Below the pieces are notes generated by a model. The model had not been told where the DNA came from, ran no database searches, and was given only the letters and a program-made list of their open reading frames with translations. From Natronorubrum halalkaliphilum (lineage in GTDB: Archaea > Halobacteriota > Halobacteria > Halobacteriales > Natrialbaceae), in the NCBI RefSeq assembly GCF_009834785.1, contig NZ_WUYX01000053.1:1-64000 (forward strand): a DNA stretch of 64,000 nt, given 5' to 3'. Each line of letters opens with the position of its first letter. The stretch's first letter is position 1. Positions 39,238 to 56,035 of this stretch are shown here, piece by piece. The position numbers and the translations under genes were made by a program.

Positions 39238-39768
39238 TCACCAATCACCTACCTCGTGTTCGTCTCGATACCGTTGATAGTAGGCCTTCTCGACGGTTCG
39301 AAGGTCGAAGTCGTCGGGGTTCCGGTTGTGGAGTTCCTCCAGTATCTTCGGGTAGTCGGTGACACGCATACCTCGATCCTCCCCAAAGAACTCGTGAACG
39401 ATATACCGGTCACCGATAGCGTAATTCTTCGGGTCGTTGAATCGAAGGATGACCGTGGCTGTCGCCCCGCCAATCCCCGGAATCGACTTTAGCGTCTTCA
39501 ACTGGAGTGCCGGATCCTTGACGAGAAACGCAGCCTCGCTGACGCGTCGAATAAACTCGTCTGGGACGGTGTTCACCTTCTCGATATTCAGATCCCGGCG
39601 TCCCTTCTGACCGTTCAGTTTCCACTGAACCACGTCTTCGAGTTGATCTTGGGTGATGTAGCCCTGCTTAGGAAGAGCATCATTGAGTCGGTCTTCAATT
39701 TCTCGAAGGTCGTCGTCGTAGACCTCGTCGTAGCGGTCACTCCATCGTCGGATCTCGTTGGCGTCCAT
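39238..39768 (-). CDS. HhH-GPD-like DNA glycosylase-fold protein
   Basis: The 176-residue protein has a helix-hairpin-helix LKSIPGIGGATATVILRF at about residues 93-110. FNDPKNYAIGDRY follows, the spacing seen in small HhH base-excision (glycosylase-like) domains. A classical catalytic Lys/Asp pair is not certain: the Asp in IGDRY is a candidate. It is the first gene of the island, facing attL. It may act on damaged or modified DNA. A pure DNA-binding role is possible. Confidence 0.65.
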   Translation of the reverse strand: MDANEIRRWSDRYDEVYDDDLREIEDRLNDALPKQGYITQDQLEDVVQWKLNGQKGRRDLNIEKVNTVPDEFIRRVSEAAFLVKDPALQLKTLKSIPGIGGATATVILRFNDPKNYAIGDRYIVHEFFGEDRGMRVTDYPKILEELHNRNPDDFDLRTVEKAYYQRYRDEHEVGDW

Positions 39769-40161
39769 ACACCACGCTCACACAGTGGCATTATAGACCT
39801 CCTGATACAGCCTCAATGACACGTCTCTAACTATCTTGTATGGCCGACCGTCCCGACGATGACGCGAGTTCAGCTGAGATTGCTCGTTGAATGGAAGAGG
39901 GTTTCTGGGAATCCGTCACGGAAGGTATCGAGGGGCGGACAGGGATGTTATCGTTGACGAGTGAGACCGGTAGGATAGGTAGTAGCCGTTATAAGGCCAA
40001 TTGAGGGCAGTTTTTGGGATGTTACTCCACAACCGATACCGAGATACACCGAACCGAACTCCCTATCTCACAGTGGAAGTGGGTAGACTCGGTGCTTACT
40101 GGTTGTGGTAACCGATTTTATAGATGGATTGAAGTAGGGGGCGTGCAGACTTTCTGATATT
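39769..40161. other. 393-bp divergent intergenic region
   Basis: It holds an imperfect inverted repeat with exact arms ccacaacc (40027-40034) and ggttgtgg (40101-40108), and the AT-rich promoter attttatag (40115-40123) of the nuclease gene. I see no further gene. Confidence 0.45.
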
Positions 40162-41358
40162 ATGAACGGTGGGGCGGTTAGAGACTATGTCGACCAATCG
40201 CAGACCCTATTGGAGACCTCACCACAGATGGACGAGGAGAACACGAAGGTCAAACTTGTCCAGCCGTTCATCGACCTATTGGGATGGGACTTCTATTCGA
40301 CAGATGTCCAACTCGAATACACCGTCCAGATGGGAACGCAATCTTCGAGGGTTGATTACGCGTTGATGGTCGGTGATACACCTGTCGTGTTTATTGAAGC
40401 GAAACCAGCACGAAGCGATCTCAGTGAATCCGATATTCGACAACTCCAGAGTTATATGCGACAGGAGTTGTCCGTCGATTGGGGCGTCCTTACTAACGGG
40501 AGGGTCTTCGAAATCCTCAGCGTCAACGGTGACGACAGACGCGACGGAGAAACCTCGATTGCTACGTTCGACTTGGACGAGGTAGGTGAGAACCCTGAGA
40601 TATTGGAAATTCTTACCAAAGACGCGATCCAGTCCGGTCGGGCTGACGAAATAGCGCGACAACTCACGGAGACAAACCGAGCAATCCGTCGGTTGACTGA
40701 CCGGGAGGAACCTATTGCTGAACGACTCACCGACATACTACGGGACGAGCTAGGTGAAACCCCGCTTGACCTCGAAGAGCAGAGTTTGGACTTTGTCCAC
40801 GCCCTTCGTAGTACCCTTCGAGACCGACGCGAGTTTATTGGTAAGTCGACAGACAAAGAACCCGATACGATAGAAAGTGAACAAATAGATAACGATAGCC
40901 GGAGCGAAGAAGCAGATATTGAAGCAATCAAAGATAGTGTGGTTGGGGAAATTGGACGGCAGGATATTGAAGGAGAAGACGACGCTCAGGTTGCCGTCTT
41001 TCCGACCCGTGAATCAGGTATTCCTTTTTTACTCGAAAACAACGCTTGGGGGTTCGTTCGTATCGGTCGTGACTTCAACTATGTGGCGATGTACGTTACT
41101 GGGGATGTCCGAGAGGTACGCTACTTTGCTACCGTGAAGGATGTGGTTGATCCAGACGAGCCAGACCTCGTCCGGGAACCGTCCGAGTACGTTGACCGGG
41201 CCAAGGTTGGTGAAAATAAAAAAGTAGTCCGGTTTGAAGAGGGCAGTCTCTACCGCCTCGAAGATCCGATTCCCTACGAGTCGAAGTATCCACAGGGACA
41301 CCGCTACACAACACTCGGGGAATTCCGTACAGCCGAAACCACGGATAACATACTGTAG
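40162..41358 (+). CDS. HsdR-N-like PD-(D/E)XK nuclease-domain protein
   Basis: The 398-residue protein has an N-terminal domain (about 20-130) like the start of type I restriction subunit R. KVKLVQPFIDLLGWDFYS is followed by the nuclease core RVDYAL...VVFIEAKPARSDL, giving Asp and Glu-x-Lys of a PD-(D/E)XK fold. No helicase motifs follow. The middle is charged and helical, and the C-terminal 120 residues form a beta-rich domain without a recognised name. It is therefore a stand-alone nuclease-like protein, not a complete type I HsdR. The G+C content is lower than in the chromosome part. Confidence 0.75.
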   Translation: MNGGAVRDYVDQSQTLLETSPQMDEENTKVKLVQPFIDLLGWDFYSTDVQLEYTVQMGTQSSRVDYALMVGDTPVVFIEAKPARSDLSESDIRQLQSYMRQELSVDWGVLTNGRVFEILSVNGDDRRDGETSIATFDLDEVGENPEILEILTKDAIQSGRADEIARQLTETNRAIRRLTDREEPIAERLTDILRDELGETPLDLEEQSLDFVHALRSTLRDRREFIGKSTDKEPDTIESEQIDNDSRSEEADIEAIKDSVVGEIGRQDIEGEDDAQVAVFPTRESGIPFLLENNAWGFVRIGRDFNYVAMYVTGDVREVRYFATVKDVVDPDEPDLVREPSEYVDRAKVGENKKVVRFEEGSLYRLEDPIPYESKYPQGHRYTTLGEFRTAETTDNIL

Positions 41359-41596
41359 AGCAGAATCACCCGTGGATTCCTCGGCTACGCATAACCCGGT
41401 ACGGATCCTCGGGGAGGAGACTGGCGTGCGGAGAGTGGTTCAGTTGATCAGACGTGGGTCAAGTGGACGACGAACACCCCGTAGTCTCACTCGCCATCGT
41501 ACCAATCGGTCAAAAACTCAATTTGAACAACGTCAACTATCCAAGCTTCTGCTACTCGGCTGCTGCGAACAATGATGATTTCCGCATTCTTGAGTA

Positions 41597-42388
41597 TTAG
41601 CCGAAGACAGTTCGCCGCCGATCCACCGTGAGGAACATCGGTTGATAACTCGGCCCCCTTCGGTACCTATGACACGCTTCGCGATACCAGTCCTCCGCAT
41701 ATCCCAACGCCGGCCCGTGATCATTCCAGCCACACTCTATGAACACCCCTCCGGGCCGCACCAACCGCATCAATAACCGCCGAGCTGGCCCGCGCTGGGT
41801 GTCGTGCATCGAATAGTGCTCCTTGGCCTGTGACTGGTCAAATGGCGGGTCAAACACAACGCTGTCGAACGACTCCTCCTCGAAGTGCTCACCCAACTCT
41901 GTTACGTCCAGGTTTAGGTCGGCGTCCATCTCAGGATTGATGTCATTCCTGACGATTTCGGCGTCGTGTTCCAGTTCTGTTTTTCCAGCGCACGCGTTGA
42001 GTACTCGTCCCTCAATCCATTCTTCAACTACGTCTCTCACCATCTTCGTCGAGAAAGTCCACGGCCCAATATAGGTAGGCGAACCGTCAGGCTCCCGACC
42101 TCCGACATTGTGAACGTACAGAGGGTAGTTGACCTGTGGTTTCTCTTTGCCTGTTCTCGGTCGTTTCTCAGCGTTTGGGTCGCGGTAAACGGATGGTGCG
42201 GAACCTTCCCCTGGCTCTTTTTCGACGACGCCTAGGTCTACCATCGATTCCAACCGGCGATATATTGTTTGTCGGGCCGGTGGGTTTTCCATCTCGTCTC
42301 TGAGGCCCTCGATGGTCAAGGATTCTTGTCGTGTGAGATGGAATAAGACTGCGTACCAGATGCGGTCGCCAGTCGTCGCAGACGACAT
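41597..42388 (-). CDS. Winged-helix plus amino-methyltransferase fusion
   Basis: The 263-residue protein starts with a winged helix at about 8-62 (LTIEGLRDEMENPPARQTIY, RRLESMVDLGVVEKE). It continues with a Rossmann methyltransferase: the SAM-binding VLNACAGKTEL at about 128-138, and the catalytic-type motif VFDPPFDQSQAKEHYSMHD at about 178-196. DPPF is in the DPPY/NPPY class of N6-adenine or N4-cytosine methylases. The family is uncertain; a self-regulating DNA methyltransferase is the best reading. Confidence 0.65.
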   Translation of the reverse strand: MSSATTGDRIWYAVLFHLTRQESLTIEGLRDEMENPPARQTIYRRLESMVDLGVVEKEPGEGSAPSVYRDPNAEKRPRTGKEKPQVNYPLYVHNVGGREPDGSPTYIGPWTFSTKMVRDVVEEWIEGRVLNACAGKTELEHDAEIVRNDINPEMDADLNLDVTELGEHFEEESFDSVVFDPPFDQSQAKEHYSMHDTQRGPARRLLMRLVRPGGVFIECGWNDHGPALGYAEDWYREACHRYRRGPSYQPMFLTVDRRRTVFG

Positions 42389-42689
42389 ATTGTGTTACGA
42401 TAATGTTACAGTATTTCAAATATACGATAGTAAAATCCACAATTGAACAAGTGAATAATTGGGTTGTGTAGACACCTCTCGACAGAGTCAATTCGTCTGT
42501 CCTCGTTGTCCTTGTAGCGCAATAGTAGGACATTTTCCCGTGCAAGTACTCTCCACGGGGTGATCAACGGCAAAACGCGGTGGTTTGTCTTGGTTTGGGG
42601 GAGTCCCGGACACTCACGGTTTGACGTGACCAGAAACCATCAAATATGAATCATACAAATACATATCATACTGTTATCTATTCAAGCAT
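42389..42689. other. AT-rich divergent intergenic region
   Basis: These 301 bases are much richer in A+T than the surroundings, with TATA-like stretches on both sides (tttcaaatatac near 42414; aatacatatcata near 42659). It probably carries the promoters of the flanking divergent genes. No RNA gene is seen. Confidence 0.4.
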
Positions 42690-43352
42690 ATGTCAGAATG
42701 GACGGGGATTCAATTCGAGACAAATACCCCGGAGGACGCACAGCGAGTCATCGATAATTATGCTATCGACGCGGTCGAACGGGTATCCTCACTGGACGCC
42801 TGTGAAGCGTTCACGTTCGCACCCGCCTGGAATCCCGAAACCGAAGATCGGAGTAAGGCGGCAATTGCGTTCAAAGGCGACTCTGACGCCATCATCCAAC
42901 ACGAACGGGATCGATGGAATTCGCTCGTCGAAGAGGGCGTAGCAACCAACTGGAACGAGATGATGTCGATGGACGAGGCCGAGATGGTAGGGGTAATGGG
43001 CGAGAAGGGCGCTGAATTATGGCCGCGTCTCGGGGGTATATCCGCTAAAATGGCGAAACTAGCGTACGAGGAGTTCGATGACCTTGAGACACTTCCCGGG
43101 GCAGTTGAAACATATCCGGAGGAGGATCGAGAAATTGGGCCTCTCGGATGGTGGAGCGTGCTTCATACTGTTACTGTCCAGCTGAACTATTCACTCGACG
43201 AAGAGATCGATGCGTATCTGTATGGGATCGAGCATACGTTGCGGAACCACGCGGAATATCAGGGCGAAGACGTTGTTAACGAACGAATAGACGAACTCAT
43301 AGACGCGCTCGACGGGATGCGCGAGGAGGTAGTAGAAGGTAGACTTAGATGA
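42690..43352 (+). CDS. Unrecognised helical protein of the island
   Basis: The 220-residue protein opens WTGIQFETNTPEDAQRVIDN and has a tryptophan-rich middle (GPLGWWSVLHTVTVQLNYS). The C-terminus is a long charged helix (DVVNERIDELIDALDGMREEVVEG). No signal peptide, cysteine cluster or catalytic motif is visible. It is alone between two methyltransferase genes, and I do not recognise the family. Confidence 0.6.
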   Translation: MSEWTGIQFETNTPEDAQRVIDNYAIDAVERVSSLDACEAFTFAPAWNPETEDRSKAAIAFKGDSDAIIQHERDRWNSLVEEGVATNWNEMMSMDEAEMVGVMGEKGAELWPRLGGISAKMAKLAYEEFDDLETLPGAVETYPEEDREIGPLGWWSVLHTVTVQLNYSLDEEIDAYLYGIEHTLRNHAEYQGEDVVNERIDELIDALDGMREEVVEGRLR

Positions 43353-43457
43353 AGATGGCCAGGGATCCGTTCTCGCTCGTGGGCTCGGATATGCTAATGT
43401 AGCATAACTGTACTCGACGTAGTGAAGCCGTGATCCCAGCGCGTAAACCCGGTCGGT

Positions 43458-43467
43458 GCGGATCTAG
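43458..43467 (+). repeat. GCGGATCTAG motif, copy 1
   Basis: One of six exact copies of this 10-mer seen in the island. Here it lies between the ends of convergent genes. CTAG is rare in haloarchaeal DNA, and the motif contains GATC. Confidence 0.5.
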
Positions 43468-43493
43468 ACCCGTATAACAAAAATTGAACCTGT

Positions 43494-43540
43494 AGTGGGA
43501 TTCGCCGCCCAAGTCGCTCCGAGTAGCTCGTCATCCCACT
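43494..43540. other. Stem-loop in convergent region
   Basis: The arms agtgggat (43494-43501) and atcccact (43533-43540) are perfectly complementary across a 31-nt loop. It sits between the unrecognised gene (end 43352) and dam (end 43631), so a transcript-end role is possible. Confidence 0.35.
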
Positions 43541-43630
43541 CATCGTCTTTCTCCTGTTGGCGGAATCAAGCTGTCCAGGTGGGCTATGCGGCTGGAGAAA
43601 TACGAAAAGGAAAGAAGGAGAAGTCGCAGA

Positions 43631-44476
43631 TTAGTCGCCGGCAGCCCCTTCAAGCGATGACTGACTCGTAACCGTTACCGCGTGGGGGTCGAAATTCATC
43701 ACCAACCGCTCCTTCACCTCATCCGTCTCTTGGTAGTTGACGACAGTACGAGTCGCGTCCTTCTCAGCGACAACCCAGTCATCCTCGTTGATGAGATCGA
43801 TGAACGACGGGGGGAGATCGTCGTACGACACGACAACGCGTGCATCCAAGCCACGTACCGCTTCCGCGAACACCTCGTGACAGAAGTCCTCGGCACCGTA
43901 ATCCGTCGAACGGTCGAAGTAAGGGGGGTCGCAGTACACGACGGCGTCCTCACAGTCGTACGCATCGATACACTCCCTGTAGTCCAGGCGCTCGATGCAG
44001 GCGTCTCTGAGCCGTTCAGCTGCAGCGTCAATCCGCTCGTCGATCTTGTTCTCCCACGTCCGCACCTTCCACGTGTTTGTGTGAACTGAAGGACGAGAGA
44101 AACCACCTGGTTCGAGGTCACCCGTGTACCCTTGCTCCAGCACGGCAAAGTACTCTCCAGCGCGCTGGATGGGATCGTCGGGACGTTCACCTTCGTCGAA
44201 CCACCGCTCTTTGATTTCGTTGAAGTACTGGCGGCTGTATGGCGTTTCCTCCAGCCACTCGCGGAGTTCACTAGGACGGTCGCGAACTACTGTGAGGTAG
44301 TGCGTGATGTCTCCGTTGCGGTCGTTCAAGACTTCGCATTCGGCGGCGTTCTTGCGGAAGAACACGGATGCGCTCCCGCTGAACGGCTCTACGTATACTC
44401 TGTGCTTCGGCAAATGATCTACAATCCAACCGGCAATCTTGATCTTCGCTCCGGGGTACGCAATTGGGCTTTTCAC
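43631..44476 (-). CDS. Dam-family (D12 class) N6-adenine DNA methyltransferase
   Basis: This enzyme methylates adenine in DNA. The 281-residue protein has the opening SPIAYPGAK, SAM-binding VEPFSGSASVFFR (about 27-39) and catalytic CDPPYFDRSTDYG, the alpha-class D12 order. The longer frame up to 44557 would translate a tRNA-like segment, so I use the GTG at 44474-44476. It is the last gene in a minus-strand run that starts at 45693. No partner nuclease is adjacent, so it may be an orphan methylase. The target is unknown. Confidence 0.85.
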   Translation of the reverse strand: MKSPIAYPGAKIKIAGWIVDHLPKHRVYVEPFSGSASVFFRKNAAECEVLNDRNGDITHYLTVVRDRPSELREWLEETPYSRQYFNEIKERWFDEGERPDDPIQRAGEYFAVLEQGYTGDLEPGGFSRPSVHTNTWKVRTWENKIDERIDAAAERLRDACIERLDYRECIDAYDCEDAVVYCDPPYFDRSTDYGAEDFCHEVFAEAVRGLDARVVVSYDDLPPSFIDLINEDDWVVAEKDATRTVVNYQETDEVKERLVMNFDPHAVTVTSQSSLEGAAGD

Positions 44477-44480
44477 CCGA

Positions 44481-44521
44481 TGGCCCGCCGATGGAATCGA
44501 ACCATCGCTCCCCAAGGGGAG
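44481..44521 (-). tRNA. tRNA 3'-half-like fragment (partial, probably nonfunctional)
   Basis: On the minus strand, a short CTCCCC/GGGGAG hairpin is followed by a canonical T arm GATGG-TTCGATT-CCATC with an exact B-box, then the acceptor-like GGCGGGCCA. No matching 5' acceptor strand, D arm or anticodon arm is found upstream. It looks like the tRNA end carried by a mobile element or a relic of an earlier integration site. Confidence 0.45.
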
Positions 44522-44569
44522 GCGGCCAGCGCGAGCGAGAGGTTGTTTGAAAGTCATTTCTGTTCTGAG

Positions 44570-44579
44570 CTAGATCCGC
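44570..44579 (-). repeat. GCGGATCTAG motif, copy 2
   Basis: An exact copy on the minus strand, just after the stop of the 116-residue gene and upstream of the tRNA-like fragment and dam. Confidence 0.5.
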
Positions 44580-44582
44580 CGG

Positions 44583-44933
44583 CTACCGCAACCCGTCAAG
44601 TTCCTCTCGTTCGAGACGCGACTCGGGGAAGCCGTACGTCTTGATTCCATACCGCTTCAGCGTGCCCTCCTCATAGTGCCCAAGGAGGGAGTCGATGTCC
44701 CAGGGGCCGAGTCGATCAAGGCTTTCGTCGAAGTACACCGCTTCGACGATGCGGTCATCAGCAGGGTACTCGGGGTTGTAGTAGTCGGCGCAGATGTCCG
44801 CGTCGTCCTCGGGCGTCTCCCAGACCGTGTACTCGCTCGCGGGCGTCTCGGTCGGGTTGACGACGATTAGCCAGTCCTCATCCTCCGACTCGAGGTCGAC
44901 GACCAGGTCGCCCAAGTCGAACGAGCGGGTCAC
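44583..44933 (-). CDS. Small acidic haloarchaeal island protein
   Basis: The 116-residue protein starts TRSFDLGDLVVDLESEDEDW, and continues LIVVNPTETPASEYTVWE. It reads as an SH3-like beta-barrel with a helical tail. The frame overlaps the upstream zinc-motif gene by 4 bases (ATGA), so the two are translationally coupled. Homologues typically sit in haloarchaeal plasmids and proviruses, as far as I recall. The function is unknown. Confidence 0.7.
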   Translation of the reverse strand: MTRSFDLGDLVVDLESEDEDWLIVVNPTETPASEYTVWETPEDDADICADYYNPEYPADDRIVEAVYFDESLDRLGPWDIDSLLGHYEEGTLKRYGIKTYGFPESRLEREELDGLR

Positions 44934-45262
44934 TGATCATCACCCACCTCCCTGGTGGACTCGTCGAACGATGGAACCCAATATGGCGTCTCGATCCCGC
45001 GGGTGTGCTCGTGCTCGTTGAGTCGGTGCAAGTCTTCGGCGATCAACTGCTCAATGTCGTCGCTGTGCTCGACCAACTCCACGCTGCCGCCGTCCTCGAG
45101 GACGTCAAACCGGCAACCGCAGTTGCATTCGTATCGTACTGCGATCTGGGTTGGATCCGGGAATTCTCCCTCGTAGATTGGCTTCTTCGCCTCACCTCGC
45201 CAATCGCACTCAGGGCACGGGTGTGTGACGATCCGCTCTCCTGGAGTGAGTCGGCGCGTCAT
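44930..45262 (-). CDS. Zinc-ribbon small protein of the island
   Basis: The 110-residue protein has a clear metal site: HPCPECDWRGEA, then YECNCGCRFDV about 30 residues later. The C-terminus is acidic and helical. It overlaps both neighbours by 4 bases, forming the centre of a three-gene coupled set upstream of dam. It may be a nucleic-acid-binding accessory protein, but this is inferred from the ribbon alone. Confidence 0.7.
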   Translation of the reverse strand: MTRRLTPGERIVTHPCPECDWRGEAKKPIYEGEFPDPTQIAVRYECNCGCRFDVLEDGGSVELVEHSDDIEQLIAEDLHRLNEHEHTRGIETPYWVPSFDESTREVGDDQ

Positions 45263-45693
45263 CGGTCATCACCCCCGATTTCTCGGGCGTTGCGGAACAC
45301 CGCGTCTCGCTTGCACTCGTCGAGCCGCCAGTGCGTCCGGCTTCGTCGGAGACCGTCTAGTTCGTGCTGGACACCGCGCTCGTCGTCTGGGGCTCGCAGA
45401 ACCTGCACAGCCTGGTGTTCCTCGCCGCCGTGCGACGTGCAGTGGTAGTGGACGCGTGCTGCCCACGAGCTCAATTCGACTCGAAGGTGTGGTTGTACTG
45501 CGCTACCGCAGTCGTCGCAAGCCAGCTCTCGCGGCTTCAGCTCCCCATTAAGGGGTTCGTCGACTTCGATGGGGTATTCTCGATCCATTGCTGCTGACTG
45601 GGGCGACGTGGTTGGGGATGTGCCGCCACTGCCGCTCGCCCCGGGGGCGGCGTGGTGGGCTCCGTCGTGGGTCTTCTCAGGCGCATCGTGCAT
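45259..45693 (-). CDS. Cys/His-rich small protein, first gene of the dam operon
   Basis: The 144-residue protein has a low-complexity N-terminus (Ala, His, Gly, Ser, Thr) up to about residue 35. A putative zinc site follows: LACDDCGSAVQPH and, 25 residues on, VHYHCTSHGGEEH. A minus-strand TATA-like aagtcttatact at 45721-45732 lies 28-39 bases before the ATG at 45693 and supports this start. A shorter start at 45588 (MDREYPIE) is possible. Confidence 0.6.
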   Translation of the reverse strand: MHDAPEKTHDGAHHAAPGASGSGGTSPTTSPQSAAMDREYPIEVDEPLNGELKPRELACDDCGSAVQPHLRVELSSWAARVHYHCTSHGGEEHQAVQVLRAPDDERGVQHELDGLRRSRTHWRLDECKRDAVFRNAREIGGDDR

Positions 45694-45720
45694 CTCCTAA
45701 TTTGTCGTTGGTTAGGCGAC

Positions 45721-45732
45721 AGTATAAGACTT
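45721..45732 (-). promoter_or_regulatory. TATA-like box of the zinc-protein/dam operon
   Basis: On the minus strand aagtcttatact precedes the ATG at 45693 by 28-39 bases. Confidence 0.4.
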
Positions 45733-45836
45733 ATCACCCATAGGGTATGATAGAAAGCCCAATTATTAACATACCTATCCCTGTGAAGGGCTCTCCAGCG
45801 ATTCCCTTATCACACACGCGACACTACATTTGATCG

Positions 45837-46115
45837 GTGACGGAACGTAATAACATAACGCCAAAAGCACAGCAAGTAGACACCTACGTCGCACGAGAAG
45901 GACGAGCAACCCGCCAAATGGTCGCCAGTGAGTTTGACGTCTCCGGCCCACGAGCAAATGAACTCCTTGACAAACTCCTCGAAAGAGGTCGAATCACGCG
46001 AGTCGCTCGAGGCATCTACGAACACCAATACTACTCCCACCCGTCGGCGGATCTAGACCAACTCCGACAGTTCGACGACGATGCGGAGCCGCACAACACG
46101 GATAATTCGCAGTGA
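45837..46115 (+). CDS. Winged-helix DNA-binding protein
   Basis: The 92-residue protein is a compact winged helix: ARQ-type helix REGRATRQMVASEFDVSGPR, recognition helix ANELLDKLLERGRIT and wing RVARGIYEHQYY. It starts at GTG 45837. It is probably an island transcription regulator. The divergent zinc-protein/dam operon begins 144 bp upstream and would be the natural target. The 3' end contains one GCGGATCTAG copy within the reading frame. Confidence 0.75.
   Translation: MTERNNITPKAQQVDTYVAREGRATRQMVASEFDVSGPRANELLDKLLERGRITRVARGIYEHQYYSHPSADLDQLRQFDDDAEPHNTDNSQ
46048..46057 (+). repeat. GCGGATCTAG motif, copy 3 (in coding sequence)
   Basis: An exact copy inside the winged-helix gene (codons for Ala-Asp-Leu-Asp), unlike the other copies, which lie at gene borders. 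Confidence 0.45.
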
Positions 46116-46155
46116 CTCGCGACTGTTGCGCCCTCATACCCAGCGAGTTCATCCA

Positions 46156-46380
46156 GTGCCTCCGCGACCCGCGATCGATCCCGCCGGCGAATTGTACACA
46201 CGGACGTGCTACGCAGCCCAGATCGCCAAGCCGCCTAGTAATGACCGAGACACCCTCACAGAAGAAGAGTTCCTTGAAGTCCTCTACCAGTACGGCGGCG
46301 TCACGACCGACTGCCCAGACGAGATCACGGTGTGGTACAAGCAGCATCTCAGAATCGCCGGGGAGGTAGACACACATTGA
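46156..46380 (+). CDS. Small island protein, start uncertain
   Basis: The C-terminal half (TLTEEEFLEVLYQYGGVTTDCP, EITVWYKQH) has real-protein composition, but the N-terminus is unclear. I take GTG 46156 (about 74 residues). A longer frame from ATG 46081 overlaps the winged-helix gene. No motif is recognised. It is probably co-transcribed with the winged-helix gene. Confidence 0.45.
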   Translation: MPPRPAIDPAGELYTRTCYAAQIAKPPSNDRDTLTEEEFLEVLYQYGGVTTDCPDEITVWYKQHLRIAGEVDTH

Positions 46381-46565
46381 CGAGCGGATCCCGCTGACCT
46401 CGGTCACCCCCTTCGCTTTCGCGCACATTGCCCCGTGGATTCGCCAGTTTCCACGCAGACCACGTTCCTGGCTCGCTTTCGTACGTCGAGCAAGTGGTAT
46501 GACTGATACCTCCAAAGCACAAGCGACTCCTCTACGACCCTAAACGAGCCTCGCTGCTACCACGA

Positions 46566-46602
46566 AATAGTTGTTGAATTATTTGGCCCCTCCCTATGTG
46601 TG
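46566..46602 (+). repeat. Iteron A
   Basis: An AT-rich half (aatagttgttgaattattt) is followed by GGCCCCTCCCT and TGTGTG. It resembles copy D most closely, in opposite orientation: TTrTTGAAyTATT then CCTCCC and TGTGTG. Confidence 0.65.
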
Positions 46603-46651
46603 GGGCAGTCCGAGAGGGAAAGGGGAGTGGAAGGACGAAAACCGATAACAA

Positions 46652-46687
46652 AATAGTTCAATAACTATTCTACCCCTCCCTCTGTGT
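46652..46687 (+). repeat. Iteron B
   Basis: Starts aatagttcaataactatt, then CTACCCCTCCCTCTGTGT. It shares CTACCCCTCCC and CTGTG with copy C and AATAGTT with copy A. It lies just upstream of the possible 33-codon ORF. Confidence 0.65.
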
Positions 46688-46693
46688 AACACG

Positions 46694-46795
46694 ATGCGAG
46701 AGAGTGCCCTAGTCGAACAACGACAAGAACACGCAGAAGGCCAAGAGGAGTTGTGGCGAGATGCAGAAGGGCGTAGGATGCCATCCCTCGGTTAG
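46694..46795 (+). CDS. Possible 33-residue micro-protein
   Basis: The ATG at 46694 opens a 33-codon frame encoding a strongly charged helix-like peptide (SALVEQRQEHAEGQEELW, then basic GRRMPSLG). It starts 7 bp after iteron B, and its stop lies in the palindrome at 46790-46805. The position is suggestive, but length and lack of homologues keep it doubtful. Confidence 0.25.
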   Translation: MRESALVEQRQEHAEGQEELWRDAEGRRMPSLG

Positions 46796-46805
46796 CAAGC
46801 TAACC
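46790..46805. repeat. Perfect 16-bp palindrome in the iteron core
   Basis: GGTTAGC-aa-GCTAACC, 7-bp perfect arms with a 2-nt centre, near the midpoint of the four iterons. A protein-binding site or cruciform is likely in an origin-like context. Confidence 0.5.
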
Positions 46806-47001
46806 TCGGTTTGCGTCATAGCCTCGGTGTAGTGTAATAGTGTAGGGTATTTATCTTTTTCTCGACAGTACTACTTATAACAACAAACGTCCACGATACA
46901 CCAGCGTGAACCCACGCCAACGAAGATCCTTTCACTGCGATCATCGTGTTGTTGCGTGTTTTTGCCGGTCGGCGTCTCCCCCACCTTTCACGTAACAAGC
47001 T

Positions 47002-47037
47002 GCACAGGGGGAGGGGTAGTATATTCCAATAATTATT
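47002..47037 (-). repeat. Iteron C (inverted)
   Basis: The minus strand reads aataattattggaatata then CTACCCCTCCCCCTGTG. It matches copy B in the CTACCCCTCCC and CTGTG parts, with equal length. Confidence 0.65.
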
Positions 47038-47074
47038 CAGGATTGTTCGGATGGGGTACTCTCTCGACACGAGT

Positions 47075-47111
47075 CACACAAGGGGAGGGAGCCAATAGTT
47101 CAATAAGAATT
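47075..47111 (-). repeat. Iteron D (inverted), overlapping the RHH gene promoter
   Basis: The minus strand reads ttattgaactattggctccc then TCCCCTTGTGTG, matching copy A. Its AT-rich end abuts and overlaps the TATA-like aatttatg (47108-47115), 26-33 bases before the start at 47141. A protein bound here would block transcription of the gene. Confidence 0.65.
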
Positions 47112-47140
47112 TATGTTTTCCTGACTAACCGTAACCAACG

Positions 47141-48109
47141 ATGGGAAAGCCAGTGCAAATCAACTTCGACGACGAGACACTGTCGCTCCTCGACGAATAC
47201 GCCAATCAAGTCACCGATGAAGGAATCGGCCCGAACCGGTCACGAGCAGTCCGCGAAACCGTCGACTTGGTTGACGAAGCACGCGAACTAACGGGAGAAG
47301 AAAACCCGGTCGAAGCCCTCCAGGAACTCCTCCGCGCATACCCCAGGGATGCACGCCAAGGCGAGTATGATCCCGACGAGTACCAAGGATACCTCTCCTC
47401 AGACGACATCGAAGCGATGGTCAAATCGGATCCCGTTCCAGATATTGACCCTGAGCACGTTGATTCTAACGACATTCCGTCCAAGACGACGCACAAGGCC
47501 GGGCTTGTCGCCGGCGTCCTCCGCCACGAGTTCGACGCTACCGAAATGGATGATGTCGAAGATGAGGACGCTGAGAAGTGGATGCGTCGGCTCGTTGCGG
47601 CGCGATCAGCTGTCGACCCCAGTACAGTGCTTTGGCGGCTGAATCGGAGCGTCCCGTATGCTGCTCGTCTTGACGCGAGAGATTGGACGGGTATGGCGCA
47701 AGACTATCTCCACAACACCTTTTTGACCGGTGCGGATCACGACGTGAAAAGAGAGTGGATCAGCGAGCATATCCGCGACGGCAAGGAGTTGCTCGAGGCG
47801 GCGAAACGTGACGGGAACGAGGAATTGGAAATGGAGGTAGAGGAGTTGTTGAGTGGTCTGCAGGCAGAGATAGAAGAGTTAGAGGCAGAGGAGGCAGAGG
47901 ACGAGTTGGATGCGCAAATGGAAGCATCAACACCGGGGCAGTGCCGTGCTCGTGCGAAAGGCGCTGGTGACCGTTGCCACCGTGACGCGGAGCCTGGGGA
48001 GAAGTACTGTCGGAACCATTTGAACGAAATTGAGCAGTACGGTGAGGATGCTGTGATGGACTACGAGTCGGATGGTGGTTCTGAGGCCGTGGAGTCGGGT
48101 GACGAGTAG
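47141..48109 (+). CDS. Ribbon-helix-helix / coiled-coil / zinc-motif DNA-binding protein
   Basis: The 322-residue protein has three parts. Residues 1-50 look like a ribbon-helix-helix domain (VQINFDDETLSLLDEYANQV, then RSRAVRETVDLV). Residues 220-265 form an acidic coiled coil (EELEMEVEELLSGLQAEIEE). Residues 268-295 carry a zinc-type motif, CRARAKGAGDRCHRDAEPGE ending KYCRNH, known from phage and DNA-binding proteins. The middle is unrecognised and helical. Four iterons lie upstream, one on its promoter. Autoregulation and a role in partition or replication of the element are inferred. No ParA-like or Rep gene is visible nearby. Confidence 0.7.
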   Translation: MGKPVQINFDDETLSLLDEYANQVTDEGIGPNRSRAVRETVDLVDEARELTGEENPVEALQELLRAYPRDARQGEYDPDEYQGYLSSDDIEAMVKSDPVPDIDPEHVDSNDIPSKTTHKAGLVAGVLRHEFDATEMDDVEDEDAEKWMRRLVAARSAVDPSTVLWRLNRSVPYAARLDARDWTGMAQDYLHNTFLTGADHDVKREWISEHIRDGKELLEAAKRDGNEELEMEVEELLSGLQAEIEELEAEEAEDELDAQMEASTPGQCRARAKGAGDRCHRDAEPGEKYCRNHLNEIEQYGEDAVMDYESDGGSEAVESGDE

Positions 48110-48118
48110 CTGCGTAAC

Positions 48119-48128
48119 GCGGATCTAG
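48119..48128 (+). repeat. GCGGATCTAG motif, copy 4
   Basis: An exact copy, 9 bp after the stop of the ribbon-helix-helix gene. Confidence 0.5.
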
Positions 48129-48186
48129 CATCAACGTTGAACAACCCGTTTTGCGACAGACCAGAAGCATCATCAGAAAGTCAACC

Positions 48187-48198
48187 TTTTTTTAGAAC
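48187..48198 (+). promoter_or_regulatory. TATA box of the erythromycin esterase-like gene
   Basis: The sequence tttttttagaac lies 21-32 bases before the ATG at 48219. Confidence 0.45.
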
Positions 48199-48218
48199 AC
48201 ACTGAGAGGTCTCGTTAG

Positions 48219-49505
48219 ATGACCCCTCAGGATCAGGGAAGCAAAAACCAGGAGTTAGAACCCATTTCCCAAGCAATCATCGAGGCAAGAACCATACTAA
48301 CCTCTGTCGACCCTAACAGCCCGCAGTCGGAGCTGACACCGATTGCCGACATTGTCGGCGACGCAACAGTCGTTGGACTGGGGGAACACTCCCACGGCAC
48401 CAACGAAGTCTTCCAATACAGGTATCGACTGTTTCGCTATCTCGTCACGGAACACGACTTCCGCGTGTTCGCGCTGGAAACCGAGTTCTCCGGCGCAGTC
48501 GTCCTCGACGAATACGTCACGGGTGGCGACGGAACCGCGCACGATGTGATCGCTCACGACGGCGTTCACGCCATCTACCAGTGCGAGCCGATGGTCGAAC
48601 TCATCGAATGGATCCGTTCGTTCAACGAGGGCCGGGACGCCGACGATCAGGTCAGAGTCCACGGCATCGATTTGAACTTCTCCACCCCGACGCGGATCGT
48701 CTCGTTCCTGGAGCGCGTCGACCTGAATGCTCTCGACGAGATCGCCGACCCGCTGGAACGCATTGCGGAGAACGCGATAAGTATCGATTTGGAGGCCAAT
48801 TTGGACGAGATTGCCACCGGATACAGCGAGATTGCTGACCAACTCTTGGATCGATTCGAGCAGAATCGTTCAGAGTACATCCAAGCCAGCTCCGAACGAG
48901 AGTTCGAACTGGCGAAGCGAGATCTAGAAGTGGTCGCCAAGAGCGGCGAACACTGGTCAATGGTTTCTGAGCAGGAGTCGGCTGTGGCACTTCGATCGGA
49001 AGTGATGGCCGAAAACGTCCGCTGGGCGTTCGAATACGAATCATCGAACCGAGTCGTCGTTTGGGCGCACAACAACCACGTCAACCGCGGCCCGTTCGCC
49101 GACGGAAGTTTCGGCGATGGGCCGTCGATGGGCGAGCACCTGGCGCGAGCGGAGGAGTTGGAGTACGTCAACATCGCGTCGAGCGTGGGCGAGGAATCAT
49201 TCCTCAGTTTCTCGATGGAGGAGGGGTCGTTCGAGGCGTTCGACCGACCTGACGCACCGGCAGGGTCACTTGCCGATGTGTTGTCGGAGGTCGATGACGG
49301 CCCGTTCTTCGTCGATCTGGAAACACTGCGGGATGATGAGCGTGCCGAGCAGTGGCTTCAGGAGGATGCCGAGCGGTTGGTGATGGGCGCTCGGGTGGAT
49401 GATGAAGATGAGATGATGGGGGTGCTTAACACGAATCCAGCGGAGGAGTTCGATGGTCTATTCTTCATTCCGGAGGGTACACCAGTGCCAACACTCGATG
49501 ATTGA
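48219..49505 (+). CDS. Erythromycin esterase family protein
   Basis: The 428-residue protein matches the Ere family. It has GLGEHSHGTNEVFQYRYRLF (catalytic-type His and Glu at about 57-62), LETEFSGAVVLDEYV, FEYESSNRVVVWAHNNHV and the GPSMGEHL loop. Ere enzymes hydrolyse macrolide lactones, but many relatives (succinoglycan-biosynthesis-like) act on other esters. Archaeal ribosomes are little affected by macrolides, so the native substrate is probably something else. No signal peptide is present. It has its own promoter. Confidence 0.85.
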   Translation: MTPQDQGSKNQELEPISQAIIEARTILTSVDPNSPQSELTPIADIVGDATVVGLGEHSHGTNEVFQYRYRLFRYLVTEHDFRVFALETEFSGAVVLDEYVTGGDGTAHDVIAHDGVHAIYQCEPMVELIEWIRSFNEGRDADDQVRVHGIDLNFSTPTRIVSFLERVDLNALDEIADPLERIAENAISIDLEANLDEIATGYSEIADQLLDRFEQNRSEYIQASSEREFELAKRDLEVVAKSGEHWSMVSEQESAVALRSEVMAENVRWAFEYESSNRVVVWAHNNHVNRGPFADGSFGDGPSMGEHLARAEELEYVNIASSVGEESFLSFSMEEGSFEAFDRPDAPAGSLADVLSEVDDGPFFVDLETLRDDERAEQWLQEDAERLVMGARVDDEDEMMGVLNTNPAEEFDGLFFIPEGTPVPTLDD

Positions 49506-49805
49506 TTTGTTTTGGGTGAAGATGCTTGCCAGAGTCGTTACGATCACAAGTTAACAATATTCAGTCGGCGAGAACGACGCCTGTTTACTGCCTGTACAAC
49601 TCGCGTGTGCTACCAACGACCCCAGGCAATGTAGCAGCCCGGGCGTGCCGGCATTCAAGTTATATCACGGGTTATGAACAGATGCGCCGCGGATCCGTGA
49701 TGGGGGTCACATCCGTGAGCGTCCATCCACCCTTGTCTGTCAGAGGAGTTGGAGGTGACAGTTTCGGTTTCAAAAGGCGATTCCGAACGTCCCTTTCGGG
49801 ACTTC
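49506..49805. other. 300-bp convergent intergenic region
   Basis: No gene, repeat or RNA structure that I can support lies between the esterase-like gene and the coiled-coil gene. Confidence 0.35.
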
Positions 49806-50519
49806 TCACCGCTTCCAATCGCGTAGCTTACGCGGCCAGTTGTTCGACAAGATCACCTTCCTCTTCCGCGACGGCAGGTTCGCCGGCTTCGGCAAGTCAA
49901 GTTTCCTAGCGATGCCATTAGCGAACGCCCACGCCTCCTCAGCGATGCTCGTCGCATACTCAACATCCTCATCGACATCGTCGACGCGCTCCTCCAAGGC
50001 GTCGATTTGCTGCACGTGCCATCGCTGGCTTCCTTCGAGCGACTCGACTCGATCTTCCAATTCTGCGAGGTCGTCGGACTGCCCGACTTCCCCGGCAAGT
50101 TGGTCGATGCGGCGCTTGAGTCGCTCCACATCCGCCTCAAGAGCGGCTAAATCGTCGTCATTCGCGGCGTCAGTCTGTAGGCGATCTACGTGACTCGCCA
50201 GGCTATTCAGCTCCTCCTCGAGGTCACTGAGGTCGTCGACGGAGACGGGAGCGACCTCGACTGACATCGCTGCTTGTTCACCGGCCAACGTCAACCGCGC
50301 CAGTCGTGGGGCCGCGAGAGGCGGATCCGCGTCTCCATCTTCAGTGACGATGAGACCGCGTTCTTCGAGCGAGTCGAACGTGCGGGTGATTTGCCTGTTG
50401 TGCTGGAGTGTGTCATCGTAGGCTTTCGCTTCGGTGAGAACGTCGCCGGTCGACATCGCTTCTTCGGGGTTGTGTGAGAGTACGTCGAGTACAATTTGTT
50501 CTCGTTCTGATAGCTCCAT
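49806..50519 (-). CDS. Winged-helix plus coiled-coil protein
   Basis: The 237-residue protein begins with a winged helix (SEREQIVLDVLSHNPEEAMS, TRTFDSLEERGLIVTEDG, about 1-65). It continues with a long heptad-rich coiled coil at about 95-205 (DDLSDLEEELNSLASHVDRL, ALEADVERLKRRIDQLAG). A basic C-terminal tail (LPSRKRKVILSNNWPRKLRD) could bind DNA. Such phage/plasmid proteins often act as regulators or DNA-organising factors. The specific role is unknown. Confidence 0.7.
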   Translation of the reverse strand: MELSEREQIVLDVLSHNPEEAMSTGDVLTEAKAYDDTLQHNRQITRTFDSLEERGLIVTEDGDADPPLAAPRLARLTLAGEQAAMSVEVAPVSVDDLSDLEEELNSLASHVDRLQTDAANDDDLAALEADVERLKRRIDQLAGEVGQSDDLAELEDRVESLEGSQRWHVQQIDALEERVDDVDEDVEYATSIAEEAWAFANGIARKLDLPKPANLPSRKRKVILSNNWPRKLRDWKR

Positions 50520-50873
50520 ATTGGATCAAAAGTGTCTGAATGACTAAACTTTGTTCCGGGACAGGGGCCGGGACACGTCCTAAACATCTGGGGTTCGTCG
50601 TTCTCCAATGCGCGTGCGTGCTCGCGAGGGACGCGGAGGAGGTGGGTGCTCGAGATCCGTTCGGTGGTGGGTTCCTTCCTCGTTGAGGAGAGGGTGGGTG
50701 CCTCTCACGAACTCCAACCGGGGTCTATCTTAACTCGAAGTGAGGGGTCACCTCCGATGCGTGAGTGGGACACTGGCGTGCAAGTGTTTACCCGATCGTG
50801 AGGACGTCTATCTCGGGATCTCGAGCACCTGGAACCAGTGGTTGTATCACGAGTAACCGAATGAGGGGCACTA

Positions 50874-50916
50874 GGGCACCACCCGACCAAGGTGTGTTGC
50901 TTGTGTGTTGGTGCCC
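50874..50916. other. Stem-loop with 8-bp perfect arms
   Basis: gggcacca pairs exactly with tggtgccc over a 27-nt loop. It may form in RNA or DNA. No adjacent gene end explains it. Confidence 0.3.
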
Positions 50917-51007
50917 CGATCGAGTGCGACGTCGCCTATCGCCTAAAACCTAATTCCACCGGTTTCAGGCGTCTACACTTGCGTTGAGCCATTTTGGAAA
51001 CGTGGGT

Positions 51008-51017
51008 GCGGATCTAG
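51008..51017 (+). repeat. GCGGATCTAG motif, copy 5
   Basis: An exact copy, 14 bp before the promoter box of the 59-residue gene. A nine-base relative (minus-strand CCGGATCTAG) lies near 51203-51212. Confidence 0.5.
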
Positions 51018-51030
51018 TGGCTGACCTCGA

Positions 51031-51039
51031 GTTTAAACG
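51031..51039 (+). promoter_or_regulatory. TATA-like box of the 59-residue gene
   Basis: gtttaaacg lies 27-35 bases before the ATG at 51066. Confidence 0.45.
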
Positions 51040-51065
51040 GGAAGGCGCGGCCAGCAGGGGTTTTG

Positions 51066-51245
51066 ATGTCCAATCGACACGCGCAGGACGACTTGATCCT
51101 CGTGATCGCGCTCACCCGGTACTCCTACCAATTCCGGGATGCAGAACCAGGGAACGCTCGTCGGGCCTGGCAAATGGCCAGGGTGCTCAGTCTTCAACAC
51201 GGTCTAGATCCGGCCGATGCAGTACGCCAGCTCGAGATGAAGTGA
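51066..51245 (+). CDS. Small helical island protein (59 aa)
   Basis: The 59-residue protein (DDLILVIALTRYSYQFRDAE, then RRAWQMARVLSLQHGLDPAD) reads as three helices with a natural composition. It has a promoter at the right distance. The family is unknown. It is convergent with the SH3-like gene at 51253, only 7 bp away. Confidence 0.55.
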   Translation: MSNRHAQDDLILVIALTRYSYQFRDAEPGNARRAWQMARVLSLQHGLDPADAVRQLEMK

Positions 51246-51252
51246 AGGGGTT

Positions 51253-51513
51253 TCACTCGTTCTCGGCGATAGGGACGAGGTCGAAGTGCCGGAACCCAAC
51301 CGGCAGCGGATTGTCACCGTCAGCGGGCCGTACCCGGTACGAATAGCGGTCAAGTGCGCGCCCAGTCTCCCCGCCCAAGGAGTCCTCGAAACGATCGACG
51401 ACCACGCACTCTGACCCGTGGAACCGACGATCTGGGTCATCCTCGGCGACGTACACCCGGACGCGTTCGCCAATCGAGTAGGGTTCTGGTGCGGGTTGTG
51501 GGACGTCCTCCAT
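51253..51513 (-). CDS. Small beta-barrel-like island protein
   Basis: The 86-residue protein has the pattern YSIGERVRVYVAEDDPDRRF followed by CVVVDRFEDSLGGETGRALD and YSYRVRPADGDNPLPVGFRH. This is consistent with an SH3-like barrel of the type common in haloarchaeal plasmids. It is divergent from the large restriction-modification gene, and their starts are 43 bp apart. A regulatory partnership is possible but unproven. Confidence 0.65.
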   Translation of the reverse strand: MEDVPQPAPEPYSIGERVRVYVAEDDPDRRFHGSECVVVDRFEDSLGGETGRALDRYSYRVRPADGDNPLPVGFRHFDLVPIAENE

Positions 51514-51520
51514 CGTGATG

Positions 51521-51530
51521 AACGTTTAAG
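51521..51530 (+). promoter_or_regulatory. TATA-like box of the type IIG gene
   Basis: aacgtttaag lies 27-36 bases upstream of the ATG at 51557 and between two divergent genes. Confidence 0.4.
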
Positions 51531-51556
51531 AGGAGACCATATGAAAGGGATAGGTA

Positions 51557-54500
51557 ATGTCTGAGGCCGCTACGTCTGACCTTCGGGATGCGTTCACCCA
51601 GATCCACGAGGAAATACGCGAGGAAGGGAGTGAGTTCGACTTTCGTTTCAGCCTTGTCGATCACCTTTTCACAGATGCACTCGGCTGGTCTCGCACCGAA
51701 GGAGAAGGGCACGTCAACTTCGAAGATGATCGGAAAGACGTTCTTTGCTTCGACGACAGCGACCCTCCATTCCCGGTCGTCGTATGTGAGACAAAACGAC
51801 CGTCTCACGACCTTGCATTGGAAGACGTCGATCAATTGGAGACATATATGTCGGGCGTCGGCAGCGCAGAGTACGGCGTCCTGACGAACGGCCACGAGTT
51901 CCGGTTGTACGAATACCGTCCAGATGAACGGGCTGTTCGTTCCATTGACTCGTTTGAGATTGAGGACATAGCGACTGCTGACGAGCTAGGCGCGGAACTG
52001 CGCGAGTCGCTAGACGAGCTGGACGTTCTCCGCCAAGACCGGTTCGTCAACATCGGCGACGCCGAGTATTTCCGGAAACGCGTTCGTGAAGTACCTGTTC
52101 AGTACCAGCCTGGAACGGATGACGAAGGGTACGAACTGTTCGTTGATGCAGTGAAGGACTCGCTCGACGAGTTGAGCGACGTGATGATGGAGTTCTTCGA
52201 CGACTATCGAGATCGCCCTGAAGGATCGTACCCCCACGATTTCCTCGAAACGACCTACCCGGACTGGCAGGATTGGCGCGAGTACACGGGGAAGAGCGAT
52301 GATGCGAAGAAGACCTTCTGTCGTGAGACGGCGTACATCGTACTGAACAGGGCATTGTTCGCTCGAATTGCTGAGGACAAGGAGATTGTCGGGAACACCC
52401 GTCTATCGGGCCGTGGGATGGCCGAATCCGTCGAACGCGGTGATGAACGTCCATACCTCGAAGCGTTGATGGACACCTACGACCGCATCGATGACCACTA
52501 CGGAGACCTGTACGAATTGGGAATCTTCGACTGGTGGTGGGTGAGTCGAGACAAGCGAAACCGGTTTAGTTCGGAGGAGAAGCGCCGGCAAGCGAAGTTG
52601 GAAGATGAACTGGATTACACACTCGGAGTCGTATTGAAACGAATCAATCGGTTCGACTTCGAGTACGTCAACCGCGACATCCTCGGCCACGTCTACGAAG
52701 ACTACTTGCCGAAGCAAGAGCGGAAGGAACTCGGCGAGTACTACACCCCGATTGAAGTCATCCGGTTTATGCTGGACAGTACCGGGTATAGACCGACCGA
52801 AGGCATCGGTCAGCAGAAAATCCTCGACCCGGCGTGCGGGAGTGGGGGATTCCTTACCGAAGCGTGCGACCGCCTCATTCAACACTACCTCAACAAGTTC
52901 GGGAAGACGAGCATCCATCGCCTCGACGCAGAAGAAGCGCGGACGATCCTGGAGCGAGCGCAAGAGAATATCTACGGCATCGACATCAACCCGTTCGCCG
53001 TCCACATCACGCAGATCAACCTCCTGTTCCGCACCGTCGACCTGTACGACAAAGTCACGGAGAAGGATCCGCACTACACGATGGACGGGTTCGAGATCCA
53101 CGTAGCAGACACTCTTTCACCGACCGTACGCGAGAAGCAGGAGGGAAGTACGGGTAGTGACAGTCAACAGGCTCAGATTCAGCAGTTCGCGGATTACAAC
53201 GGGCGGGCGCAGGCGTTCATTGAGGACAGGAATGAGGTTGACCGGATCAAGGACGAGATGGAGTTCGAGGTGGTGGTTGCGAACCCACCGTACGTGAAGA
53301 CGCAGAACATCACCGGGCCGAAAGAAGAGTACGCGGAGAGGTACTCTTCCATCGACAGCAAGTCGTTCGACATTTACGTGCCGTTCATTGAGCGTGGTTT
53401 GGACTGGGTTTCCGCCCGCGGAAGCCTCTCATACATTTGCCCGAACCGCGTCCAAACGCACGAGTACGCCGAGGACATCCGAGAACTCCTCACCGAGGAA
53501 CCGATCACGCATCTAATTGATTTCAAAGACGTGGAGGTGTTCGATGCGGCGACTCCGTACCCGTCCATCTTCACCGTCGATCACGAATCTGACTCCGACG
53601 ATGAGGTGAAGTGCGCTCGATTCGCCGAGGAGCGTGACGGAGTGCTGGAGGAGATTTACCACCTTGACGAATGGGAGACGCCCAGTGATGTTTCCGAGTA
53701 CGACTTGTTCACGTACTCGAAGGAACGGATGCGTAGAGACAACGAAGACGACCACCTTCCGAGTTGGAAGCCGATGCCAGACGAGGAACGGCAGGTGTTC
53801 GATGCTATCGTTGAGGGCGGTGATGCTCGACTCGGCGACATTACGAACTCGGTGTTCCAGGGGTTGATCACTGGGTGGAACAAGGTGTTCGTCGGCGAGG
53901 TTGTCGGTGAAGCGGATGATGAGGGCGTCGTCCAGTTCCTCCGTGAAGGCGGGGACGAACCCGAACCGGTTGATGAGAAGCTACTCCGCAGGTTGTTGAA
54001 GGGAAGTGAAATCGACCACTGGGGAGCGGACTGGGAAGGACTGTGGCTGCTGTTCCCGTACGAAGTCGAGGACGGCGACGCTGAACTGTTGACGCGGGAA
54101 ACGTTACAAGAAGATTATCCGGACACGTGGGCGTTCTTCAAGAACCACGAGGACGAGTTGAAAGGCCGTGAAGGCGGAAAGTGGGAGGATGTCGACCAGT
54201 GGTGGGCGTTCGGTCGAAGTCAGAACTTGGCGAAGATGGAGCCGGACAAGATAATGACGAACATTATGAGTGACTACAACCGGTTCTCGGTCGACACCGA
54301 GGGCAAGTACTACTTCATCGGCGGAGGGAACGCCGGCGGATACGGAGTCGACTTGATGGAGGAGTACGCTCCTTCGTCGGAAGACCACCTCTACTATGCC
54401 GCTCTGCTGAATTCGAGCGTCCTGGAGTTCTGGCACAAACACATCGCGCCGATATTCGGCGGAAAGTACTACAGCTACAACAAGCGGTACTTGGAGCCAC

Positions 54501-55063: not shown

Positions 55064-55082
55064 CTCAGCGAAGGGTGTCCGG

Positions 55083-55111
55083 GATCCCCCCGATCTCGGT
55101 CAGATCCCCCC
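55083..55111 (+). repeat. Direct repeats GATCCCCCC
   Basis: Two exact 9-mers (55083-55091, 55103-55111) lie 20 bp apart in the gap between the type IIG gene and the recombinase gene, that is, about two helical turns apart on one DNA face. Confidence 0.4.
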
Positions 55112-55170
55112 TGAAAACGCTGCTGAAGACCCCCAATTGGGCAGCCCTCATACCCTTGAGCGTCCTACAA

Positions 55171-55884: not shown

Positions 55885-56035
55885 TTGTTGCGCCTCGTTT
55901 CTGCGCAGATCGTTGCGCTACTCGCTCTCCGGACGAGGATGGGAGATACGTTGAACGAGGCCTCGCCGACAGTCGCGGGGTAAGATCTATGTATCAGTGC
56001 TCCAACGTCAAACTCATACGTGTACAACTGCCGAG

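Follow-up and report, generated by a model that had tools for sequence, protein, structure and literature searches.

What is the function of four mirror-symmetric repeats in front of a gene for a ribbon-helix-helix (RHH)-like protein, on an element that lacks a recognisable replication gene? How integrative elements of haloarchaea replicate when they carry no known Rep or Orc is, to our knowledge, largely obscure. The repeats were found in the window (the whole 64-kb stretch of DNA that was analysed, part of contig C6 of a haloarchaeal genome of 4.56 Mb), and a first-pass annotation had proposed that the iterons and the RHH protein form a replication or partition module. We lean, if only slightly, towards a replication origin: the module would start the replication of an integrative, plasmid-like element, with the RHH protein that it encodes as initiator.

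The iterons and the core that they enclose have the following positions.

46566-46600, forward strand: iteron A, leave-one-out PWM score 36.3 bits (best elsewhere in the window 10.8)
46652-46686, forward strand: iteron B, 35.8 bits (best elsewhere in the window 15.5)
46687..47002, no strand: core between the inner iterons B and C, 316 bp, with a putative unwinding region inside
46790..46805, no strand: inverted repeat GGTTAGC-AA-GCTAACC in the core, about 44 bp off the dyad centre
47003-47037, reverse strand: iteron C, inverted, 36.6 bits (best elsewhere in the window 16.6)
47077-47111, reverse strand: iteron D, inverted, 32.0 bits (best elsewhere in the window 10.8)

For the scores, a matrix from three iterons was used to score the fourth across the 64-kb window. 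The held-out iterons reach 32-37 bits, any other site in the window at most 16.6 bits. When the whole 4.56-Mb genome was searched with a degenerate pattern, iterons A-D were the sole sites, and the reversed control pattern gave zero matches. In the common register of 35 bp, an AT-rich half that is partly palindromic is followed by 3 bp of spacer, a C-string and TGTG. In iteron A, the AT-rich half (AATAGTT-GTTG-AATTATT) is followed by a TGG spacer, the C-string CCCCTCCC and TATGTG. The palindrome of the AT half is best in iteron B (AATAGTT-CAAT-AACTATT, then CTA, CCCCTCCC and TCTGTG). The C/G-string, either CCCCTCCC or CTCCCTCCCC, is present in all four iterons, which are identical to each other at 23-26 of 35 positions. 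The resemblance of A to D and of B to C that had been pointed out holds mainly in the spacer (TGG vs CTA), overall identities being similar.

The pairs A-D and B-C are centred at 46838.5 and 46844.5, with iteron spacings of 86 and 74 bp, and an AT-rich tract (~46836-46889) lies near the dyad centre. The dyad score of this region is 9.0, compared to at most 2.8 in 20 dinucleotide shuffles. With wider slip it rises to 11.8, while 90 other upstream regions do not exceed 10.8 and 16 further genes in the window do not exceed 2.8. The matrix, the genome-wide pattern search and the dyad score bear out two forward and two inverted repeats in symmetric placement, as read in the first-pass annotation. 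Its 36-bp motif and 310-bp core are given here as 35 bp and 316 bp, and its perfect palindrome has perfect arms that are separated by a 2-nt AA centre. The 322-aa gene (47141-48109) has its ATG 29 bp beyond the end of iteron D; as had been stated, this iteron covers the promoter of the gene, the position of which is presumed.

Which replication functions accompany these repeats? The surrounding element is defined by the following features.

38792-38865: tRNA-Pro gene, with AGTTCGAATCTGCGCCGGCCCA common to the gene and 61753-61774
38843..61774, no strand: integrative element in tRNA-Pro(CGG), 22.9 kb, att core AGTTCGAATCTGCGCCGGCCCA at both ends
51557-55063: type IIG-like enzyme in the window element
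55075..55884, forward strand: second, smaller tyrosine integrase (Phage_integrase E 3.4e-16)
60476..61540, reverse strand: large tyrosine integrase, adjoining the right att (Phage_integrase E 1.1e-7)

Because AGTTCGAATCTGCGCCGGCCCA occurs at tRNA-Pro and again beside the integrase, the module lies mid-way in a 22.9-kb integrative element. The cargo comprises a type I-R N-terminal-domain protein, a D12 methylase, the second small integrase, an erythromycin-esterase family protein (its gene is next to the 322-aa gene) and unknowns. Pfam scans of the element's ORFs detected no recognisable Rep, RCR or primase-polymerase domain. An HMM scan found no Orc1/Cdc6 within ±10 kb of the module, none of the Cdc6_lid matches listed, which leave out the weakest, is on contig C6, and this contig codes for no ParA. 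The earlier remark that ParA and a known Rep are missing thus holds for the element as covered by the Pfam and HMM scans and for contig C6. A search of Rfam gave nothing.

The 322-aa protein, P0001, is the candidate for a self-encoded initiator. Its predicted parts are listed here.

47141..48109, forward strand: P0001, 322 aa, with an RHH-like N-terminus, a YDPD/PxHV/RxE core, a coiled coil and a C-terminal zinc motif
47141..47290, forward strand: residues 1-50, RHH-like (profile matches, predicted helices 11-27 and 31-51)
47363..47590, forward strand: residues 75-150, core domain (EYDPDE...L...PEHV...LRHE)
47738..47926, forward strand: residues 200-262, acidic helical/coiled-coil region (pLDDT mostly 70-85; matched by low complexity only)
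47942..48019, forward strand: residues 268-293, Cys/His motif (Pfam WRC E 1.9e-4, below cut-off)

The N-terminus of P0001 is probably an RHH-like domain, to judge from profile matches. A profile of this region from 13 family members matches the RHH of NikR (2bj1, E 0.0012; 1q5v, E 0.013) and also CopG (6xrw, E 0.46); a designed helix bundle outranks both in this search, by composition. In the homologue from genome G191, RHH_1 is matched with E 0.008. The AlphaFold model of the full-length protein, made from a two-row alignment, has a pLDDT of 46, and that of the N-terminal 60 residues a pLDDT of 68, which is too weak to show an RHH dimer. The N-terminal RHH domain that had been proposed is thus consistent with the NikR and CopG matches, the models being too poor for the dimer fold. 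Foldseek searches with these weak models gave no useful match. A PDB match of P0001 to a tendon-repeat protein was discarded as acidic-helix similarity. No ATPase or nuclease motif was found in P0001.

The Cys/His motif is indeed present at residues 268-293, as described before, and is found in P0001 only among the 15 family members scanned. Judged by the alignment, the conserved module does not include this zinc motif. The motif also matches other haloarchaeal ORFs (loci L003, L004, L005 and L007) with 37-47% identity, and it may be a mobile zinc-binding module.

When P0001 alone was the query, no relatives were retrieved in searches of plasmids, phages, viral contigs and genome contigs. A genome-wide protein search returned two relatives with the N-terminal and core layout of P0001. 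With iterated profiles, 23 of the 391 Halobacteria genomes searched gave matches to the family (at least one being false), and a phylum-wide draw gave eight matches in 393 genomes, every one from the window's own order. A fragment (L082) and a false positive (L083) were left out of the family set. By its predicted architecture, P0001 belongs to an undescribed haloarchaeal family with an RHH-like N-terminus and a conserved "YDPD…PxHV…RYE" core. The proteins have 228-789 aa, and nearly all have the RHH-like start and a core with YDPD, PxHV and RYE/RHE signatures. In many members, the alignment suggests a winged-helix-like stretch after the core. No Pfam, NCBIfam or PHROG model matches the core domain. 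A literature search with partial coverage returned neither an RHH initiator nor a description of this family. The core profile has a weak match to the N-terminal part of MCM7 (PDB 8ouw_7, E 0.013); it is possibly due to chance and is a lead only, yet would be suggestive for an initiator.

Do the relatives have comparable repeats? Symmetric inverted arrays precede the respective gene for 11 members of the family. These are the window gene and those at 10 other loci, and the layout is the same throughout, each locus having its own repeat sequence around a core with an AT-rich tract. Tracts comparable to that of the window are found in the cores of L010, L034, L035 and L037. The clearest arrays are these.

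L010: three forward and three inverted repeats, spacing 104, 104 and 88, 103 bp
L034: three forward and three inverted repeats, spacing exactly 104 bp, the six segments sharing one centre
L078: two forward and two inverted repeats, spacing 114 bp

Arrays were scored by symmetry; a motif finder with 24-bp seeds was clean for L010, L034 and L078 only and gave noise elsewhere. Strong dyads also exist at L037, L040, L041, L043, L044 and L079. In nine of the 11 cases, the dyad score is higher than in any of the 90 upstream regions that were taken from the same loci as controls (maximum 9.0). The window score of 9.0 is at the edge of the control range, but here the array is secured independently by the iterons, and L035 (8.0, inside the control range) is counted as weak. 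When L078 and L079 were tested, the pattern had already been defined; both have arrays. The largest array is that of L079 (G097:C25, 8.1-9.2 kb), where perfect 20-mers are mirrored at about ±564, ±362 and ±256 bp; its centre is 792 bp upstream of a 480-aa family member.

At 12 family loci there is no array (L036, L038, L039, L042, L045, L047, L049, L050, L051, L077, L080 and L081). The first-pass annotation had made its reading depend on conserved upstream iterons in homologues; arrays are present at 11 genes and absent at about 12. The layout is conserved among the array-bearing relatives while the repeat sequence is not.

If the arrays are origins, what fires them? An Orc1/Cdc6 HMM had no match within ±10 kb at any of the 11 array loci, versus matches at five of 13 array-less loci (Fisher p 0.04), four of these five having supplied seeds for that HMM. 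A genome-wide search revealed an Orc1/Cdc6 match beside L043 on pHLAC01, just beyond ±10 kb. Haloarchaeal Orc1/Cdc6 genes, of which 6-18 were found per genome examined, far outnumber the potential origins (PMC3936714), which speaks for a host Orc1/Cdc6 firing the origin in trans, with the RHH protein as a mere repressor or copy-number regulator there. The C/G-strings of the iterons, which resemble haloarchaeal ORBs (PMC3936714), point in the same direction. However, there is no canonical ORB core near the module, the sole window match to a core of the TTCCANTGGAAA type being at 56788-56800. Furthermore, the repeats differ wholly between elements, yet an RHH-family gene always adjoins them. This combination suggests that the repeats co-evolve with the RHH protein and not with a conserved host initiator. 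We consider firing by a host Orc1/Cdc6 in trans to be improbable.

RHH adaptors acting with ParA are an established partner type. The iterons could be a centromere in a partition module. Either by itself or together with a ParA-like ATPase of the host, the RHH protein would then pair sister copies or tether them to the nucleoid. The array-less homologue from G191:C10, which is directly upstream of ParA (AAA_31, E 2.4e-42), fits partition, and so do several array-less members on plasmids with a separate Orc1/Cdc6 nearby. However, the ParA-adjacent member has only short TGTGTACACA operator pairs and no long array, while the array-bearing members have no nearby ParA: in a genome-wide search none was close to the array loci covered, the nearest being 16 kb from the gene of L043. 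Partition would also leave the array-bearing elements without any identified origin. Overall, we regard it as unlikely, although it deserves some weight. Where the element has an Orc of its own, array-less members presumably have a role in partition or regulation, and the simplest reading of array-bearing members is an origin plus initiator. G191:C10 itself is a circular 45.5-kb element, its contig ends being identical over ~92 bp. It is phage- or plasmid-like and carries Orc1/Cdc6 (L008/L009; IMGVR_UViG_2853968202_000001). In the array-bearing element of L034 (2275-4977, reverse strand), two ParB_N + HTH proteins adjoin a DNA methylase.

Partition predicts no switch of strand asymmetry at the array centre. 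Raw GC skew was rejected as stand-alone evidence, being confounded by gene direction, and an orientation-controlled test was used instead. In this test, genes within 7 kb are divided into those directed away from the array centre and those directed towards it, and their GC skew at third codon positions is compared. The RHH gene is left out, gene calls are heuristic, and permutation is stratified by locus. At the 11 array loci, the GC3-skew difference is +0.128 (108 genes, stratified permutation p<0.0001). The maximum is at zero shift, and the difference withstands the removal of any one locus; without L041, which is 79% identical to L040, it is +0.101 (p 0.0015-0.003). The 12 array-less homologue loci show no such difference (-0.014, p 0.86). 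As a positive control, 10 Orc1-adjacent oriC1 loci from the same genomes gave +0.047 (p 0.017), with the peak at zero; ORB-type inverted repeats are visible at six of them. The window copy by itself shows no orientation-controlled difference (-0.072 vs -0.084), and neither do L043 and L079 individually. We thus infer the origin role of the window copy from its relatives. As seen at the family level, the skew switch is centred on the arrays and speaks for replication rather than partition. The reading proposed at the outset is thus partly supported, and we favour the origin over the partition site.

RHH proteins commonly autorepress, and the array could simply be the autoregulatory operator/promoter of a transcription factor, with symmetry and skew as by-products of divergent transcription. 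The position of iteron D over the presumed promoter agrees with this. However, the sites reach upstream over more than 570 bp, in mirror order, and over up to ~1.36 kb in L079. Divergent transcription does not explain the skew either, because the test compares genes by orientation to the centre and leaves out the RHH gene. A plain operator is, in our view, very improbable.

For the origin that we favour, the following course of events can be envisaged. The four iterons face each other across the 316-bp core; the AT-rich half of each would be the binding site for dimers of the RHH protein. With spacings of ~104 bp, about ten helical turns, the copies of an array would share one face of the DNA. 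The symmetric nucleoprotein complex may open or stress the AT-rich tract close to the centre of the dyad, where MCM and its partners in the host replisome would be loaded bidirectionally. P0001 has no ATPase-like feature, so that host factors would be needed for melting and helicase loading. Firing could then occur on the excised circle and perhaps also on the integrated copy. Because iteron D overlaps the promoter of the protein's own gene, binding there would also repress the 322-aa gene and limit firing. The better-known RHH proteins act as repressors, antitoxins or partition adaptors. These usual roles count against the origin model, as do the ParA-adjacent homologue, the lack of an ATPase or nuclease motif and the null skew of the window alone.

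How does the module relate to known systems? In the haloarchaeal origins that have been characterised, inverted ORBs with an essential G-string surround an AT-rich region beside the origin's own orc1/cdc6, and in oriC1 an internal G-rich inverted repeat serves as an enhancer (PMC3528665, PMC3936714). As in oriC1 and oriC2, G/C-string inverted repeats flank an AT-rich core with an internal inverted repeat, the presumed initiator gene adjoins the repeats, and the skew switch at the centre of the array loci is of the same type. Unlike in oriC1 and oriC2, the neighbouring gene codes for an RHH-core protein and not for Orc1/Cdc6. Also, the repeats are element-specific and are not ORBs, and the clearest relatives have three plus three copies at ~104 bp. 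With neither an ORB sequence nor an Orc1/Cdc6 gene, the module would be origin-like in its working and is not a member of the Orc1/Cdc6-ORB class.

Cassettes of ParA and an RHH adaptor (type Ib plasmid partition; archaeal SegAB) share with the module an RHH-like protein and nearby repeats, and one family member (in G191) adjoins ParA. They differ in that ParA is present, whereas the window element has none and the other array loci have none close by. In addition, the array is large and mirror-symmetric, and the array loci taken together have an origin-like skew. As in iteron/Rep plasmids and CopG, the repeats precede the gene of the presumed binder and overlap its promoter. Unlike iteron/Rep plasmids, the element has no Rep or RCR gene. 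Copy control by the RHH protein, which the first-pass annotation had brought up as a precedent, is unsupported: CopG has 45 aa, while P0001 has 322 aa and RHH-core proteins in general 228-789 aa with an undescribed core domain, and the next gene codes for the erythromycin-esterase family protein instead of a downstream rep. Another RHH protein tied to archaeal plasmid replication is the regulator Orf56 of the pRN1 type, located beside the replicase, which regulates the primase-polymerase gene on the same transcript (PMC3543421). In contrast, no primase-polymerase gene was found in the window element.

A broader reading, which we hold more tentatively than that of an origin, is that RHH-core proteins are initiators unrelated to Orc1/Cdc6, rolling-circle Reps and primase-polymerases. 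They would define a new archaeal replicon class, in which fast-evolving mirror-symmetric arrays mimic ORB origins on integrative elements of Halobacteria that are rich in restriction-modification genes. The module is categorically new only if initiator activity is proven. If true, an unrelated DNA-binding fold would have converged on the ORB layout. The family with its co-varying symmetric arrays is a testable candidate for an Orc-independent origin. An array together with its RHH-core gene might provide a new vector replicon, and the gene could be an annotation marker for elements whose key gene now reads "hypothetical protein".

The elements themselves have further features in common. The large integrase of the window element has homologues in the elements of L010, L034 and L040, and the small integrase is common to those of L010, L034 and L037. 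Restriction-modification genes are abundant in the array-bearing elements examined (L010, L034, L041 and window positions 40162-55063). They code for BsuBI/PstI-, XamI-, AccI- and Mrr-like nucleases, N6-methylases and, in the window, the type IIG enzyme. In the right att region of the window element (61687-61774), the tRNA-Pro fragment is split by ~52 bp (GTGGCCGTAACCGCA ... AGTTCGAATCTGCGCCGGCCCA), and a further partial tRNA-Pro copy (61889-61904) lies 115 bp beyond this fragment. The split fragment and the extra copy suggest repeated or nested integrations.
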